The position numbers and the translations under genes are program-made. A stretch of 26,324 nucleotides of DNA from a virus: positions 1 to 26,324 of IMG/VR virus record IMGVR_UViG_3300031722_000146; one strand, given 5' to 3'. This document shows positions 3,951-26,139 of this stretch, piece by piece; the stretch's first letter is position 1; each line of letters opens with the position of its first letter. The notes under the pieces were generated by a model. It did no database searches and was not told where the DNA came from. It saw nothing but the letters and a program-made list of their open reading frames with translations.

Positions 3951-4385
3951 TCAGAATACTTTAGGCTCTGTAAGACTTTTTACGCTGTTATCCATATTTT
4001 CTATTTCAAATTTAGAGCCATTTTCAAATTCTACTTTAAATTTACGACCAGGTTTTATTTCATCAATCGATTTTTCAATATTAGAAATATGATTCTTAAT
4101 TTCTAAATTCAATTCATCGATTATAACTTTGAATCTATGAAGTATAGTATTGATTGGAGCGCCATGTGGCGCTATCTGATTAAAAGAGAAATAATGCTCA
4201 TTACTTGTCATTGATATATCAATATTGTCAATTTCTACATGAAATAAAACATCATTAGCTCTTACCTGACAATCATATATAACACCAATTTCACTTCTTA
4301 GCGTATACCAACCTTCAATCATAGAACTTCTATTCTCGAATAAGTACTTGCTTTCAAGTTCCTTAATAATTTCTGATCGTTTCAT
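3951..4385 (-). CDS. Hypothetical accessory protein
   Basis: A 144-aa protein. I chose the ATG at 4383-4385 (MKRSEIIKELE...), 19 bases after the previous gene's stop. The upstream frame to 4469 overlaps that gene and reads like out-of-frame sequence. It is rich in charged residues, I and E, with a helical N-terminus and a C-terminal half (near residues 95-140) that alternates K/E and looks coiled or elongated, ending near NGSKFEIENMDNSVKSL. There are no cysteines that suggest metal binding, no signal peptide and no membrane helix. It is the last gene of a four-gene accessory operon that ends at the hairpin at 3860-3907. Family not recognised. Confidence 0.6.
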   Translation of the reverse strand: MKRSEIIKELESKYLFENRSSMIEGWYTLRSEIGVIYDCQVRANDVLFHVEIDNIDISMTSNEHYFSFNQIAPHGAPINTILHRFKVIIDELNLEIKNHISNIEKSIDEIKPGRKFKVEFENGSKFEIENMDNSVKSLTEPKVF

Positions 4386-4404
4386 ATTACAAATGTATAA
4401 ATTA

Positions 4405-4929
4405 TTAGTGTTCGCGCAATTCCAGTTCGCCATCTTTTCGCATGAGCCACACTGGAGTCGAATCTTCAAAGCCTATAGTGTAACCATGTGTTGCCAAATA
4501 TGCAGCTATTTCGTTTGTCGATAAGTCTGCCATTGGCCGGATATCGAGTTTAATTTCTTCACTCGTTTTGCGGATCGTTGTATTTTCTTTCGTTGCCGGT
4601 TGAAATTCTCCACAATACCGGGATAAGATTATTTCTTTGAATGTAATTGGTCCTTGCTTGGCCTTCGATTCGTATTGTTCTTTTAGGAATTTAAGCAATT
4701 TTGTTGCATCAATTTTACCCTTAGCCCAACTGTTAGCCATAAATTCATCCCATAAGTATGCATCACCGGTGTATTTGCCATTTTCCGTCACGCGAATAAT
4801 TATTGCGCCTTCCGTACCTGTATCTGCAATTTCAGAAATCATATCATAACATTTCTGCACAAACTCATCGTTATCCTCGAAGGAAATATAATAAGCTTCG
4901 TCATTGATCATTATTTCTGCTTGTGTCAT
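4405..4929 (-). CDS. Hypothetical phage accessory protein
   Basis: A 174-aa acidic soluble protein. Residues 1-100 look like one alpha/beta domain (MTQAEIMINDEAYYISFED at the start). Residues 118-172 form a second small module, with an RKTSEEIKLDIRPMADLST-type linker and a compact end (YTIGFEDSTPVWLMRK). I recall similar C-terminal modules at the ends of other Bacteroides phage proteins but cannot name them. The ATG overlaps the stop of the upstream 81-aa gene (ATGA). It is preceded by a strong Shine-Dalgarno, AAGGAGG, about 6 bases upstream, which is uncommon in this genome. Function unknown. Confidence 0.65.
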   Translation of the reverse strand: MTQAEIMINDEAYYISFEDNDEFVQKCYDMISEIADTGTEGAIIIRVTENGKYTGDAYLWDEFMANSWAKGKIDATKLLKFLKEQYESKAKQGPITFKEIILSRYCGEFQPATKENTTIRKTSEEIKLDIRPMADLSTNEIAAYLATHGYTIGFEDSTPVWLMRKDGELELREH

Positions 4930-5171
4930 GACTGGCCTCCTTCCTCATTCAATTTATTGAAATCATCTTTTATGCAAATCAAATTAATCAGAGATTCTTT
5001 GATCTGAATATCAAAGTCATTTGTCAATATCATAACTCGACAAAGAAGATCTTGCATTTCAGATAGGTAAGTTGCATATCTTTCAGGTGCATCACTTTCA
5101 GCCCAATTACCTAATATTTCAGCTGCATTATCTGTGACTTTAAATCCATTAATAATAGTGGCTGCTTTCAT
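4926..5171 (-). CDS. Small hypothetical accessory protein
   Basis: An 81-aa, mainly helical, acidic protein (MKAATIINGFKVTDNAAEIL...). The start overlaps the upstream stop by the ATGA arrangement. It is preceded by a strong ribosome-binding site whose sequence, GGAAGGAGGCCA, is almost identical to the one before the next gene. Both upstream proteins therefore end in a similar E-G-G-Q peptide. It is the second gene of the operon behind the structured leader. No cysteine pattern, signal peptide or membrane helix; I do not recognise the family. Confidence 0.6.
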   Translation of the reverse strand: MKAATIINGFKVTDNAAEILGNWAESDAPERYATYLSEMQDLLCRVMILTNDFDIQIKESLINLICIKDDFNKLNEEGGQS

Positions 5172-5407
5172 ACTTGGCCTCCTTCCACTAAATTAAATTT
5201 TAATTCTGTGGTACCCATTACAAATGCTACGTTGGTAGTAGTTCCATCGTACTTAAAGTCAACCAGTGCTTCCTGGTCAATGGCTTGTTTCAAATTCAAA
5301 TAAAGTGATTTCAGGAGTAAGCGAGCATCCGACATTGGCACTACTCTCACTTCGTGCACGGGATTTTCTTTTGTAGGTTTAATCCTACGGGTTTGATTTG
5401 TTTTCAT
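5168..5407 (-). CDS. Small hypothetical protein, first gene behind structured leader
   Basis: A 79-aa protein with a basic N-terminus (MKTNQTRRIKPTKENP) and a helical middle followed by strands (FKYDGTTTNVAFVMGTTELKF). The ATG at 5405-5407 directly follows one arm of a 14-bp inverted repeat (5408-5421), so the base pairing of the leader can reach the start codon. Its stop overlaps the ATG of the 81-aa gene. It heads the operon of four genes (5407 to 3951). Function unknown; it is the gene whose translation the leader would control first. Confidence 0.6.
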   Translation of the reverse strand: MKTNQTRRIKPTKENPVHEVRVVPMSDARLLLKSLYLNLKQAIDQEALVDFKYDGTTTNVAFVMGTTELKFNLVEGGQV

Positions 5408-5519
5408 TTCGGGAGTTTCGTGTTTTTGATTTTATGGCAATAAAAGAAGCGATGCCAATATCACGCTACGAAACTCCCGAAGGTATTACCGCTCCAAACG
5501 GCTCGTGATATGGCATCGC
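5408..5519 (-). promoter_or_regulatory. Candidate structured 5' leader RNA with two interleaved inverted repeats
   Basis: Two long inverted repeats are nested out of order. Repeat A, TTCGGGAGTTTCGT (5408-5421), is the exact complement of A' (5468-5481), 14 of 14. Repeat B, GCGATGCCAATATCACG (5449-5465), is complementary to B' (5504-5519) except for one bulged A. In the transcript the order is B', A', B, A, then AUG with no gap. This allows either an H-type pseudoknot or two competing hairpins, one of which reaches the start codon. I do not match it to a known riboswitch class. Confidence 0.55.
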
Positions 5520-5549: not shown

Positions 5550-5582
5550 AAAAAACCACATCGTTATGTGGCACGTAGTGCC
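5550..5582 (-). terminator. Intrinsic terminator after the PH-domain gene
   Basis: On the minus strand the stem CCACAT (5561-5556 arm) with loop AACG pairs to ATGTGG and is followed by six U (5555-5550). A second small hairpin, GGCAC-N3-GTGCC (5570-5582), lies just before it. It is about 65 bases beyond the stop of the gene at 5646-6017 and separates that unit from the structured leader. Confidence 0.65.
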
Positions 5583-5645
5583 TTCGTAAGAGTTTCGTAC
5601 TGCAAATATCGGAATGTTTTTTGAATTGGCAATGCAAAAATGAAA

Positions 5646-6017
5646 TTATTTTGAAAATTCTTGTACTTTCTTCCTAAAACCGAAAGGGTCTCTAATTGTA
5701 TAATAAATTTCTTTCGTTCCTCCAGAACCAATAATAGTAATTGATCCATAATTAAAAATTCTCCCTAATATTCCCTGATCAACATTTACACTTTCAATTT
5801 TAGAATGGTTCATTTCAAATATCTTTCTACTAATCCACCCAATTTTTATTATTACCCTTTTATTCGTTACAGCAAATTCATCTGTTTTCATTTCAATAAA
5901 TGGAATAATGAATAGTGATAATATACCAGTTAAACGCCAAAATATTATTGGGTGATAGGTAGTTTTAAGTTCTATTTGTTCATCTTTAATAAGATTACTT
6001 TCAATATAGTTACTCAT
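5646..6017 (-). CDS. PH-domain (bPH2/YdbS-like) membrane protein
   Basis: A 123-aa protein. Residues about 22-43 form one hydrophobic segment (IIFWRLTGILSLFIIPFI), followed by the hallmark of bacterial PH domain family 2 (YdbS-like): FAVTNKRVIIKIGWISRK at 48-65. The domain continues with IESVNVDQGILGRIF and the GSITIIGSGG turn. Proteins of this family are membrane-anchored, with the PH-like fold on the cytoplasmic side; their ligands are mostly unknown. It follows the lipoprotein gene after 16 bases, so the two form a small moron-like unit that could alter the lysogen's envelope. That role is inferred from context. Confidence 0.7.
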   Translation of the reverse strand: MSNYIESNLIKDEQIELKTTYHPIIFWRLTGILSLFIIPFIEMKTDEFAVTNKRVIIKIGWISRKIFEMNHSKIESVNVDQGILGRIFNYGSITIIGSGGTKEIYYTIRDPFGFRKKVQEFSK

Positions 6018-6410: not shown

Positions 6411-6953
6411 TTATAATTCTAGCATTTTATAACCATACCTGGCAGAACCATTCACCCGCTTAACCATTTTTTTAAATCCAATACCAGTTAAACACGTTCC
6501 CACATTTATAATTGTCGTATGCTCTTTTATTTCATCATCCAATTTATTGAAAATATCTGTTGGTAACATAAATGTATATGATTCATCAGCATTTGGAATT
6601 CTGTATTTATTTAATATAAATTTTTCTATATCAGGTATAAACTTTCTTTTTGGAAAAACCAATTTTGAAATTGCAGCTTTACATATCGCTTTTTTATATT
6701 TAACTAACTTTGAGTTTATTGAAGAAACAACCAAAATGAATACAATGAAATCTTCAATATCAAAACATAAATATCCTTCGCTTGTGATATTTTCAATTTT
6801 AAAATTAATGTTGAGTCCTCGTTTATTAAATTCTATCATTGTATTGATAAAGTTTATCTTGTAATCTTCACAAAATAGCTTTATCGGAATAAATATTTCC
6901 GAATCAATCTCTAATGTCTTAATTTTCCATCCCCATAAATATTCTGTTTTCAT
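6411..6953 (-). CDS. Hypothetical accessory protein behind the repeat region
   Basis: A 180-aa protein. I use the ATG at 6951-6953 (MKTEYLWGWKIKTLEID); an in-frame start at 6986 would overlap the -7 box found at 6976-6983. It is rich in I, K and F, and its codons are markedly A/T-rich compared with the structural genes. It contains a helical middle (KLVKYKKAICKAAISKLVF near residues 94-112) and a compact C-terminal region (INVGTCLTGIGFKKMVKR near 148-165). No signal peptide or clear membrane helix. It stands alone, with its own promoter and terminator, next to the gene-free region, as expected for a moron gene. Family not recognised. Confidence 0.6.
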   Translation of the reverse strand: MKTEYLWGWKIKTLEIDSEIFIPIKLFCEDYKINFINTMIEFNKRGLNINFKIENITSEGYLCFDIEDFIVFILVVSSINSKLVKYKKAICKAAISKLVFPKRKFIPDIEKFILNKYRIPNADESYTFMLPTDIFNKLDDEIKEHTTIINVGTCLTGIGFKKMVKRVNGSARYGYKMLEL

Positions 6954-6975
6954 AAGCTTATATATTAAATTTCTG

Positions 6976-7011
6976 CAAATATACATATTTTTTACATACT
7001 ACATACTACAC
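6976..7011 (-). promoter_or_regulatory. Promoter with repeat-covered -33 region for the gene at 6411-6953
   Basis: The minus strand carries TATATTTG at 6983-6976, an exact TAnnTTTG -7 box, 22 bases before the ATG. The expected -33 region has no TTTG; instead it has two tandem copies of GTAGTATGT (6993-7011). This arrangement suggests that a protein binding the repeats could activate or block the promoter. Confidence 0.5.
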
Positions 7012-12722: not shown

Positions 12723-13685
12723 TTAAGCCACGAATAATTTACCAACCAACAGACGCTCAGCGCTGATGCTTTCGAACTGGGTACCGAAGTACATTACCAT
12801 TACAAAATCCAAAATCAATGGGTGATGTTTTTCAACTGTGATCGTTTCTTCCTGGCTCATTTGATCAACACCAATCAACATATTTCCCTGAGTTGTCAGG
12901 TGAATGTATGGAGATGCTTTTTTGTTTGCCAATGGAACTAACTCACACATATCGTCAGAACCTTCCAAATACGTTTTCTTGAATTCTTTGTTGTAAGGCA
13001 AAGATCCATTCAACTGTTGGTAGTCGTCGTTATATGCATTGTAAATAGCTTTGCTGACAAACATTTTACAGCTTTCGCCCTGAAGCTCGTCAGTGGCTGA
13101 AGTATAAAATGCTTTCAACTTAGTTACGCAGTTATTTGCTGTGATAGCAGCATCAAAATCGTAACGGTTACCTTTGACAACTGTAATATTTCCTGCAGTA
13201 ATTTCGGCAGCCGTAATGGTATCAAAACCATTGTACAGATCGGCAGTGGTAGAACCACCGGCATTGCGAACGGCACCCCACAAACTTTTGTTGAATGCTT
13301 TAGAAACTTTCTTCGCTAAGAAAGCAACCACCTTGAGGGTGATATCGGTACTTTTCAATCCATCGCCGCTGAGTACTGCGCTTCCATAAATGGAATCGGC
13401 CACTGAGTTAGGAGAGAATTTCTTGATAACAGAACCGCGATACGTGGTAAGTGTACGACCTTTGATCGTTACATCGTCGGTATCGGTACGGCTTTCGCTG
13501 TATGGACCTACCTCGATAGTGCCATCCAGTTCGCCAACAACTTCTTCGCCACGGATACCGGTGCGAACAGTCATGTGCTTGAGTGATGATTCCATGCCAA
13601 TAACAGGCATCATCAACAAGTCTTTGCGGTATTTTTTAGCCGAAGCAGCTAATTGAGCATCGGTAATAGCAACTTGATTTGACAT
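12723..13685 (-). CDS. Major capsid protein
   Basis: A 320-aa protein directly downstream of the head protease. The N-terminus is helical and Ala/Lys-rich (AITDAQLAASAKKYRKDLL), and there is an extended E-loop-like region near residues 45-85 (RTGIRGEEVVGELDG). Then come a conserved-looking A-domain with SKAIYNAYNDDYQQLNG near residues 211-228 and an ending with I-S-A-E-R-L-L-V-G-K-L. The layout and length fit an HK97-fold capsid subunit of Bacteroidota phages; the fold itself is inferred. A short leader separates it from the protease, and the following gene is the 185-aa structural protein, which shares its terminator. Confidence 0.8.
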   Translation of the reverse strand: MSNQVAITDAQLAASAKKYRKDLLMMPVIGMESSLKHMTVRTGIRGEEVVGELDGTIEVGPYSESRTDTDDVTIKGRTLTTYRGSVIKKFSPNSVADSIYGSAVLSGDGLKSTDITLKVVAFLAKKVSKAFNKSLWGAVRNAGGSTTADLYNGFDTITAAEITAGNITVVKGNRYDFDAAITANNCVTKLKAFYTSATDELQGESCKMFVSKAIYNAYNDDYQQLNGSLPYNKEFKKTYLEGSDDMCELVPLANKKASPYIHLTTQGNMLIGVDQMSQEETITVEKHHPLILDFVMVMYFGTQFESISAERLLVGKLFVA

Positions 13686-24460: not shown

Positions 24461-24661
24461 TTATTCCTCCCCTAACTCCATTTGCCAATCAATAACTTCA
24501 TCCAGCATTTCCTGAAGTCTTTCAGTTTTTTCATTGAATGTTTCTCCTTTTTCTGAGTCTTGCCATTTTTCAGAGGCATTTTCAAATTTTTCTTCTCGTT
24601 TTGAAACCAGTTCTTCCAAGTGTTCTTGGAGTTTTTCCATGAGTTTAATTGTTGTTTTCAT
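24461..24661 (-). CDS. Small coiled-coil protein
   Basis: A 66-aa protein that is almost wholly one charged helix (MKTTIKLMEKLQEHLEELVS, then KREEKFENASEKWQDSEKG). It has regular heptads, and so probably forms a coiled coil. It is the first gene after the 181-bp control region and starts the run of early genes down to 15.9 kb. Two identical 14-bp leader repeats stand 9-42 bases before its ATG. It could be a regulator or an assembly partner for the next protein. Family not recognised. Confidence 0.6.
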   Translation of the reverse strand: MKTTIKLMEKLQEHLEELVSKREEKFENASEKWQDSEKGETFNEKTERLQEMLDEVIDWQMELGEE

Positions 24662-24669
24662 TGCTTTTA

Positions 24670-24703
24670 AAAATTAAGTTGATATATTTAAAATTAAGTT
24701 GAT
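24670..24703. repeat. Two direct 14-bp leader repeats
   Basis: AAAATTAAGTTGAT occurs at 24670-24683 and again at 24690-24703, 20 bases apart, just upstream of the first early ORF. Thirteen of the 14 bases recur at 6326-6338, upstream of the lipoprotein gene, and shorter forms occur at 18840-18850 and 21101-21107. Confidence 0.7.
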
Positions 24704-24710
24704 TTAAAAA

Positions 24711-24837
24711 AGAAAAGAGAGGATTGGCGAATACACTATTATTACTATCACAACCGATTATTGATTAATTGATTAATGAGCCTTTCCTCTCTTTTTTTGT
24801 CGACCCTATCGACGCACTCCCAACGCTTTGGGTAGTG
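24711..24837 (-). promoter_or_regulatory. Control region between the LuxR-type gene and the early operon
   Basis: This gap of 181 bp holds several dyads. AGAGAGGA (24716-24723) pairs with TCCTCTCT (24785-24792) across 61 bases; U-runs flank this pair on both strands, so it could terminate in either direction. GTCGA-N5-TCGAC lies at 24799-24813 and CCCAA-N4-TTGGG at 24819-24832, directly after the LuxR-type gene. I see no clear TAnnTTTG box. The DNA may be a target for the LuxR-type protein that is encoded just upstream. Confidence 0.4.
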
Positions 24838-24842
24838 GGTTT

Positions 24843-25403
24843 TTAAACTAATTTCTTTCGGTGCGCATAATCAGCAAGTTGCGACTTGCTATGAAAATCA
24901 AGTTTCCGAAGCATATTATTTGTATGATTTTCCACAGTCTTCGGACTCAAGCAAAGTTCGTCGGCTATTTCAATCACCCTTTTGCCAATTGCGATCAATC
25001 GTAATACGCGCATTTCTCCATCGAGAATCACTATTTTTTCAGTTGGACTACATATATGGCCTTCCGATCTGCATTCGCCGGCTAATGGGCAGCTCACATA
25101 TTCAAAATTCCAAATTCCGTTTTCGTCAATATCCCATTTATTGTCGAACTGTGCCCAATTGCATTTTATAAACCCACATACCACCCGAAATTCAAAGTAC
25201 CATATATTGTGAATGTTATTGGGGTAACGAGAACAAAGCTCTTCATATGCTTTGGGATATATTTTTCGTATTGCTTCGTAGATTGGAGAAACTATTTCTC
25301 TGTGATTTTCAGTCAATACATATATGTCTTCGTCGTAATGGCGAACTTCAATCGTTCCACCTCTTGGGCGGGTATTAAATTCAAAGCATTTCAGTTGACA
25401 CAT
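24843..25403 (-). CDS. LuxR-type HTH regulator with an N-terminal cysteine cluster
   Basis: A 186-aa protein. I use the ATG at 25401-25403, which overlaps the previous gene by 23 bp; the longer frame begins inside that gene. Residues 130-186 are a LuxR/GerE HTH (EMRVLRLIAIGKRVIEIADE, then LSPKTVENH and a final helix). Five cysteines (76, 81, 105, 111, 118) with the form C-P-L-x-G-x-C-x6-C precede it and could bind zinc or an iron-sulfur cluster. Proteins with this build are frequent in Bacteroides prophages next to the early promoter. It is probably an activator of phage genes that responds to a metal, redox or host signal; this is inferred. Confidence 0.75.
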   Translation of the reverse strand: MCQLKCFEFNTRPRGGTIEVRHYDEDIYVLTENHREIVSPIYEAIRKIYPKAYEELCSRYPNNIHNIWYFEFRVVCGFIKCNWAQFDNKWDIDENGIWNFEYVSCPLAGECRSEGHICSPTEKIVILDGEMRVLRLIAIGKRVIEIADELCLSPKTVENHTNNMLRKLDFHSKSQLADYAHRKKLV

Positions 25404-25620
25404 CTTTGATAGTTTTTGAGGGGTTAAGCAATTCGGCCAAAATTTCAATTTCTTTTCGTTTGTAATTTTGTTTTTTGAGCTTGTAGTAAAATGTGTTTTG
25501 CGACAAGCCACTTTCTTTTAAGAACGCATCGCGAGTAAGAACTTTATTCCTGTCGTTTAGCGAATCGTAATGAGTGATAAACTTCATTATGATCTTTTTT
25601 TCTTGTTTTGTTGTTTGCAT
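25381..25620 (-). CDS. Small HTH protein, Cro-like
   Basis: A 79-aa basic protein. Residues 31-68 (AFLKESGLSQNTFYYKLKKQ, then EIEILAELL) form a helix-turn-helix. A second ATG at 25585-25587 (MKFITHYDSLND) is an alternative start that gives 68 aa and may be the better one. It is the first gene read leftwards from the divergent control region and overlaps the LuxR-type gene by 23 bp. Its place opposite the repressor is that of a Cro-type protein, which would shut the repressor promoter by binding the same operator. That role is inferred. Confidence 0.65.
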   Translation of the reverse strand: MQTTKQEKKIIMKFITHYDSLNDRNKVLTRDAFLKESGLSQNTFYYKLKKQNYKRKEIEILAELLNPSKTIKDVSTEML

Positions 25621-25638
25621 TTAGTTTTTTATTACTAA

Positions 25639-25669
25639 TTTGGTATTGCAAAACTAATATATATATTTG
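25639..25669 (+). promoter_or_regulatory. Repressor promoter, Bacteroidota consensus
   Basis: TTTG at 25639-25642, 19 bases, then TATATTTG at 25662-25669 match the TTTG-N19-TAnnTTTG consensus exactly. The predicted start of transcription, near 25676, lies at the edge of the 7-6-7 dyad and about 40 bases before the repressor ATG. Confidence 0.75.
25649..25656 (-). promoter_or_regulatory. -7 box of the divergent early promoter
   Basis: The minus strand reads TAGTTTTG, an exact TAnnTTTG, 29 bases before the Cro-like ATG at 25620. No TTTG stands 19-21 bases upstream; instead that position is inside the dyad operator, so the promoter may need an activator or be blocked by the repressor. Confidence 0.5.
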
Positions 25670-25673
25670 GATT

Positions 25674-25693
25674 AACTGTACTTTAATACAGTT
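25674..25693. promoter_or_regulatory. Dyad operator
   Basis: AACTGTA, six bases, TACAGTT: a perfect 7-6-7 palindrome. It covers the start of transcription of the repressor promoter and the -33 position of the opposite early promoter, the ideal place for a dimeric repressor to control both. Confidence 0.65.
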
Positions 25694-25716
25694 ATTTTAT
25701 AATTATTTTTCATATA

Positions 25717-26139
25717 ATGTATAATTTACAACATATCAAGACATTAGCGGAACAACGGAAAGTAACGTTAAAGGACGTATTCACTCATGCTGGAATGAGT
25801 GAGGCAGGTTTCCATCGGTCCATAAAAAATGGAAATATGGGTATTGAATACTTAGACAAAATAGCTGATTTCTTTGATATTAGCGTATCAGAACTAATTA
25901 ATGACTCCAGATTAAAGTTATTAAAGTCACCGGATAATGTATCAGAGAATGTAGGAGTATATAAGAAGTTAGTTACAACTCAAGAGGAACTAATCAATAA
26001 GCAAGAGAAGCTCTACAATAGTTCAGTAAGAGAGGTACAAGATTTGAAAAAACAAGTCGAGAAATTAAAAAATGAAGTTGAATTGTCCAGTGGATATTCT
26101 TTGGTTGCTACCCCACCGGTGGAATTGAAGAAAAAATAA
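25717..26139 (+). CDS. XRE-family phage repressor with coiled-coil C-terminus
   Basis: A 140-aa protein and the only convincing gene on the plus strand. Residues 1-65 form an XRE/Cro-C1 type HTH (VTLKDVFTHAGMSEAGFHRS, then GIEYLDKIADFFDISVSELI). Residues about 80-125 form a coiled coil (KLVTTQEELINKQEKLYN) for dimerisation. It has no peptidase (LexA-type) domain, so induction would not be by RecA-driven self-cleavage. It is transcribed away from the early genes, from a consensus promoter with a dyad at its start site, and ends before a terminator-like hairpin. It is the candidate lysogeny repressor. Confidence 0.7.
   Translation: MYNLQHIKTLAEQRKVTLKDVFTHAGMSEAGFHRSIKNGNMGIEYLDKIADFFDISVSELINDSRLKLLKSPDNVSENVGVYKKLVTTQEELINKQEKLYNSSVREVQDLKKQVEKLKNEVELSSGYSLVATPPVELKKK

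Follow-up and report, generated by a model that had tools for sequence, protein, structure and literature searches.

Anatomy of the leader

What does a leader do in which two long inverted repeats are interleaved and the last arm runs into the start codon of a phage operon? We addressed this question in a stretch of viral DNA of 26,324 nucleotides (IMG/VR record IMGVR_UViG_3300031722_000146, positions 1 to 26,324; hereafter the window), where the leader lies on the minus strand upstream of an AUG at 5407. A first-pass annotation had described two repeats in the transcript order B', A', B, A, and both their coordinates and their pairing were confirmed: A' (TTCGGGAGTTTCGT, 5481-5468) and A (ACGAAACTCCCGAA, 5421-5408) form a perfect 14-bp inverted repeat (14/14), and B' (GCGATGCCATATCACG, 5519-5504) pairs with B (CGTGATATTGGCATCGC, 5465-5449) over 16 bp with one bulged U. 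As had also been stated, A' and B are 2 nt apart and arm A adjoins the start codon, ending at 5408 with the ATG at 5407. Absent from that description was a third element, A1, which comprises TACGAAACTC (5599-5590) and CGAAGG (5586-5581) and is a partial direct copy of A directly 3' of a -7 box (GATATTTG, 5610-5603). It was recognised from the leaders of relatives, found via the 79-aa and 174-aa operon proteins, as a repeat of A with which the predicted transcript begins, behind a GATATTTGCA box; in these leaders A is wholly different yet still matched. The features of the leader and the operon are as follows.

5603..5632, minus strand: promoter (-33 box TTG at 5632-5630, -7 box at 5610-5603), with boxes that we take to be of the Bacteroidota promoter type
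5581..5599, minus strand: A1, putative first target, bipartite, complementary to A' (A1:A' -33.1 kcal/mol in the window)
5570..5582, minus strand: hairpin H1 (GGCAC UAC GUGCC), by direct reading
5550..5571, minus strand: H2, an intrinsic-terminator-like hairpin within the leader (CCACAU AACG AUGUGG UUUUUU), by direct reading
5449..5519, minus strand: putative antisense RNA element, B'-inner hairpin-A'-B (isolated fold -30.2 kcal/mol, closing stem p = 0.93)
5504..5519, minus strand: B', 5' strand of the closing stem, pairs with B
5501-5489, minus strand: inner hairpin region of the element
5468..5481, minus strand: A', putative antisense segment for A and A1, by complementarity
5449..5465, minus strand: B, 3' strand of the closing stem with one bulged U, pairs with B'
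5408..5421, minus strand: A, putative second target, by complementarity to A', adjoining the AUG of the first gene
5168..5407, minus strand: first gene of the operon (79 aa), without Pfam or PHROG family and with homologues behind several other leaders
4926..5171, minus strand: second operon gene, 81 aa, of a family common to related operons
4405..4929, minus strand: third operon gene, 174 aa, with a C-terminal domain conserved in related operons
3951..4469, minus strand: fourth operon ORF, 160-172 aa, no family assigned

TTTGCA, which also served as the anchor of leader extraction, stands immediately 5' of A1 in 24/24 leaders, and the sole promoter-like box conserved in all leaders is located upstream of A1 and not between the arms, where a transcription start had been considered. 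The terminator, previously thought to close the preceding unit, is located at 5571-5550, i.e., downstream of the promoter and inside the same leader, between A1 and B'. H1 shares bases with the 3' end of A1 and reaches 2 nt into the terminator stem, and this 2-nt overlap, judged by eye, recurs in the leaders possessing a terminator. No Shine-Dalgarno sequence is evident at the start codons behind the module, and on the operon strand of the window the longest uninterrupted complement of A' found outside the leader is 9 nt.

Distribution of the layout

The layout promoter-A1-(B'-hairpin-A'-B)-A-AUG occurs in 39 IMG/VR contigs besides the window (L045 is cut by the contig end), IMG/VR members having been added by pattern scans for two common B' types. 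Twenty-four leaders were parsed, 22 of which have distinct A1-A'-A sets, and this recurrence in differing sequences is the best evidence that the arrangement is real. The closing stem comes in two subtypes, GCGATGCC... and ACGGCTGTA/TACAGCCGT, both of which precede related as well as unrelated first genes. A terminator is present in nearly all leaders and missing from L033, one of two modules with different A (the other is L036) on the IMG/VR contig 3300020048_000273. Pattern matches at L031, L052 and L066 were dropped after reading, the layout being absent or the match due to chance.

A promoter-anchored search for the layout, with no sequence given, returned a single site in the window and a single site in every one of six database phages: MT835542 and MT835559 (human fecal), Polaribacter phage Leef_1, Flavobacterium phage laban6-1, Cellulophaga phage Ingeline_1, and Porphyromonas phage031a. 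The A, A' and B sequences of these phages are unrelated to their IMG/VR counterparts, only the layout being common to both, and a control with 60 double-strand shuffles yielded 1 hit. The same search found no site in three related phages (MZ447863, Flavobacterium phage 1H and Bacteroides phage BT-TP2; L069, L071 and L073). DNA and protein searches of isolate phages gave no match to the leader of the window or to the 79-aa protein, and a type II leader gave chance matches of 20-25 nt only; the collection of bacterial genomes yielded no relative of that protein, no prophage copy in a scan with one exact pattern, and one chance pattern match, to a Ruminococcus MAG (L066).

In Ingeline_1 and phage031a, the CDS is annotated as starting precisely at the AUG that overlaps A. 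In Leef_1 (L068, NC_062750.1), the annotated start of gp29 (24539-24991) is probably too far upstream, inside the leader, and an in-frame ATG at 24710 overlaps A and gives a 93-aa protein. In laban6-1 (L070, minus strand near 13090), the ORF that begins with the ATG at A is only 15 codons long and overlaps the next ORF, an arrangement which suggests a leader peptide with translational coupling, like icd and orf45.

Conservation of pairing

Compensatory change, which the first-pass annotation had proposed to look for in the stems, proved to be massive: A:A' is kept paired while the sequence of A diverges, the identity of A between leaders averaging 48% (minimum 14%) with 20 distinct 10-mers among 22. 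A MAFFT alignment of the full leaders introduced gaps into A and A', and pairs were instead counted on gap-free registered helices, which were picked by best complementarity: A:A' was paired in 97.7% of positions vs 57% with partners permuted (112 cells changed on both sides), and A1:A' in 98.6% vs 58%. The fairer control is therefore the duplex energy re-optimised for each non-cognate combination, and here the cognate A:A' duplex reached -24.0 vs -11.0 kcal/mol for non-cognate ones, and the cognate A1:A' duplex -35.2 vs -19.4 kcal/mol. By duplex energy, the own A' ranks best or second best in every case, and A1:A' is stronger than A:A' in 24/24 leaders. A1, A' and A co-vary such that A' can pair with either target. 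The two modules of genome G004 differ in A, and pairing across them is about 8 to 14 kcal/mol weaker than that of cognate partners.

The conserved helices contain G-U pairs and the orientation is identical in 24/24 leaders, which argues for an element acting at the RNA rather than at the DNA level. Repeats of 10-17 bp, some inverted and some direct, in the neighbourhood of a promoter could also represent operator repeats, an invertible segment (A1/A' or A'/A), or a replication or packaging site, and invertible promoters are common in Bacteroidota. However, in addition to the uniform orientation and the G-U pairs, A differs at nearly every locus, whereas recombinase and operator sites are conserved, and the place of the element is fixed between promoter and AUG, so that a DNA-level function appears very improbable. 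Invertible DNA, operator repeats, a replication origin and also a ligand riboswitch were considered and rejected.

Predicted folding

The 113-nt leader folds at -39.6 kcal/mol vs -25.1 +/- 3.6 kcal/mol in dinucleotide shuffles (z = -4.0, 0/200). Some arms are A-rich, which might raise the suspicion that the repeats arose by chance or from the composition of AT-rich DNA; given this z-score, the single hit in the layout-search control and the non-cognate duplexes, we assign practically no probability to that explanation, which is refuted by the comparative data.

All fold predictions refer to equilibrium, without pseudoknots or co-transcriptional folding. In the window, the B'/B stem alone closes a compact 71-nt RNA bearing A', and B'/B is likewise predicted to close the isolated B'-to-B element elsewhere (closing stem probability 0.92-0.97 in 24/24 leaders, with the inner hairpin formed); A' in the isolated element is partly single-stranded (mean 0.53 unpaired, 24 leaders). 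In the nested equilibrium fold of the full leader, A' pairs mainly with A (mean 0.84) and less with A1 (A1:A' 0.13), and therefore the default in cis appears to be a covered start region, for which A1, the stronger partner of A' when present as a separate strand, may compete. When the A1 footprint was masked in silico, terminator formation was not consistently raised, a result covering part of the leaders and obtained with a footprint that extended into the terminator.

These results support the original proposal that the leader of this phage accessory operon regulates in cis as an RNA and is able to mask the start region. The more specific proposal, an H-type pseudoknot or riboswitch-like switch, is not supported in that form: B'/B closes the 71-nt RNA by itself, and A' has two alternative partners, A1 and A. 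The order of the arms permits a pseudoknot in which both stems coexist, but this is probably not the right reading; the nested folds favour exclusive A:A' and B:B' states, as predicted by a folding method that cannot represent pseudoknots. More generally, the leader could be a purely cis-acting translational switch (an H-type pseudoknot or two exclusive hairpins) which senses a ligand, a protein or a gene product and involves no antisense RNA in trans. A:A' alone can hide the start region, the leader fold is stable, and A:A' dominates it. However, such a switch leaves unexplained why every leader carries, at its 5' end, a third matched copy (A1), and A varies freely among related phages with complementarity alone being kept, although a ligand- or protein-binding site would be expected to be conserved; moreover, the same first-gene family is found behind different A sequences and behind both B subtypes. 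We therefore consider a cis-only switch unlikely.

Operon genes and phage context

In the operon of the window no antirepressor is recognisable and the products are without known family or fold; AlphaFold gave modest models for the 79-aa and 174-aa proteins, with no PDB match. Among the operons of relatives, P22_AR_N/PHROG anti-repressor Ant domains were found in those of L057 (2e-31) and L036 (8e-35), KilA-N domains in those of L008 (1e-16) and L034 (1e-15), and in Leef_1 an annotated anti-repressor Ant (25352-25885) lies two genes downstream of the module. A tyrosine integrase is encoded in 9 of the 14 contigs searched, including 8/8 of those longer than 32 kb; the phages carry integrases. 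In the leaders, A is located at or beside the AUG. The module occupies a variable spot amid late genes. In phage031a (L075, 2570-2800), it precedes a primase-containing early operon, not an accessory operon.

Among the first and second operon genes of related leaders, a fast-evolving family of about 80 aa recurs, marked by the basic motif RRxRPxKPV at the N terminus. Just upstream of the module, the window encodes a 123-aa protein (5646-6017; PHROG 3707, 'membrane-flanked domain', moron category), and a small secreted, lipoprotein-like or membrane gene occupies the same place in many relatives. A 191-aa protein (6411-6986) resembles, by eye, the operon protein of L024 (+1166; sub-threshold P22_AR_N match, E 0.026) and may be a diverged antirepressor-like protein. 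At the right end of the window (25381-26139), two divergent small genes form an HTH-like pair (25381-25620, minus; 25717-26139, plus); the product of 25717-26139 matches phage transcriptional regulators (PHROGs), and the pair looks like a lysogeny switch.

Proposed mechanism

We conclude that the leader, in a temperate phage of Bacteroidota, is probably a control module based on antisense RNA that works like C4 (P1/P7), CI (P4) and IsrK (Gifsy-1), and the best reading is that it represents a new Bacteroidota antisense RNA family. One promoter would give rise to an RNA that starts with A1 and may stop at the terminator; the read-through RNA would contain the stem-closed antisense element, then A at the start codon region, and then the small-ORF operon, where several relatives have an antirepressor or KilA-N gene. 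By holding A in cis, A' would keep the first gene untranslated, and the element, released or acting in trans, might silence other copies in an immunity-like manner, the sign of this trans regulation being part of the proposal. A1, whether it is part of the full-length transcript or of a short RNA ending at the terminator, could compete for A' and thereby relieve or tune the block, and pairing of A' with A1 may favour termination, with the qualification that the terminator is not universal.

One sub-variant of this antisense module, the likelihood of which overlaps with that of the module itself, would follow IsrK more closely: the terminated 5' RNA containing A1 activates in trans by stripping A' from A on the read-through mRNA, the element serving as a lock only. 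The succession of A1 and terminator in nearly all leaders, the greater strength of A1:A' throughout, and the published mechanism of IsrK (PMC4825925) are in accordance with it. However, L033 possesses A1 but no terminator, and C4/CI and IsrK belong to a single type of locus, so that both readings may hold at once; as a separate explanation it is at best tentative. Equally speculative is the extension of the antisense module to an RNA circuit that is self-contained and can be re-coded freely, in which each cassette would have its own A1/A'/A 'address', A1-type short RNAs would activate and A'-type elements silence matching cassettes only. Bacteroidota prophages would then fall into private immunity groups that sense copy number, and G004 would contain two orthogonal circuits.

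Proteobacterial phages are the ones for which antisense control in the manner of C4/CI/IsrK has been described, and neither Rfam nor the literature searched, which lay mostly outside subscription journals and preprints, showed a counterpart in Bacteroidota. If the proposal is correct, a widespread class of temperate Bacteroidota phages, among them prophages of the human gut and of Porphyromonas, uses this RNA switch, which would be convergent with, or very distantly related to, C4/CI/IsrK and would operate at start codons lacking a Shine-Dalgarno sequence. It would also explain immunity groups among these prophages, readable from about 15 nt, and it offers some 20 natural antisense/target pairs on which specificity is directly testable.

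Comparison with known RNA systems

None of the 4227 Rfam models matched the leader at gathering, and at E up to 10 there were only chance-level miRNA and sRNA matches far below the gathering scores; Rfam thus bears out the earlier statement that the leader belongs to no known riboswitch or cis-regulatory family. With E values up to 10 allowed, neither the leader of the window nor that of L013 was matched by the models C4 (RF01695), isrK (RF01394) and c4-a1b1 (RF03163), and the C4 model had no match at gathering in L067, L068, L070, L072, L074 and L075. In the controls, the C4 model hit P4 at 74.9 bits, isrK and c4-a1b1 were also found in P4, and the triple search recovered A1 (+8651), A' (+8463) and A (+8384) of P4 in the same order, A1 lying within Rfam isrK and A' within Rfam C4.

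C4 of P1/P7, with its targets a1b1 and a2b2, resembles the module in the succession of promoter, upstream target, stem-closed antisense element, downstream target and, in some of the operons behind the module, antirepressor (in the P1 annotation, promoter-a1-b1-C4-a2-b2-icd-ant1), and the downstream target is in both located at the translation start of a small ORF. The defining arrangement of C4, an antisense segment with an upstream and a downstream target in one transcript, was found in 24 leaders and six phages, and C4 has target-specific variable segments, as here (PMC5320573). However, the module has one long antisense segment (11-19 bp with A) between inner hairpin and closing stem, whereas C4 uses two short loops, a' and b'; compared with the P4 alignment, closing stem B'/B and inner hairpin are present, but A' is not in a C4-like third hairpin. 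C4 itself is processed by RNase P and active in trans. The target of the module is located at or on an AUG without evident Shine-Dalgarno sequence, and the phages are those of Bacteroidota, not Proteobacteria.

CI of P4 resembles the module in that its seqB is complementary to two copies of a sequence, of which one lies upstream and the other downstream (seqA/seqC), and the module of phage031a, placed before a primase operon, is in the position of CI in P4. There is no sequence or covariance-model similarity between the two, and CI works by premature termination (PMC4825925), whereas in the module a role of termination is suggested by the terminator that separates A1 from the element. IsrK of Gifsy-1, a short terminated RNA that activates an inactive read-through mRNA (PMC4825925), shares with the module the promoter, the short terminated RNA and the read-through mRNA with a sequestered start, both predicted for the module, and, in some of the operons, the antirepressor downstream. 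Its sequestering segment is located in orf45, while that of the module is in a stem-closed leader element. IsrK and C4/CI belong to one locus type, both being present in P4. P22 sar is not known to sit in a leader between two copies of its own target. As an antisense RNA that limits antirepressor translation (PMC12197685), sar would otherwise be similar to the putative antisense RNA of the module. The best reading of these comparisons is that the module operates in the manner of C4/CI/IsrK but belongs to none of these families, because the covariance-model tests for C4, isrK and c4-a1b1 fail despite the same order and logic.
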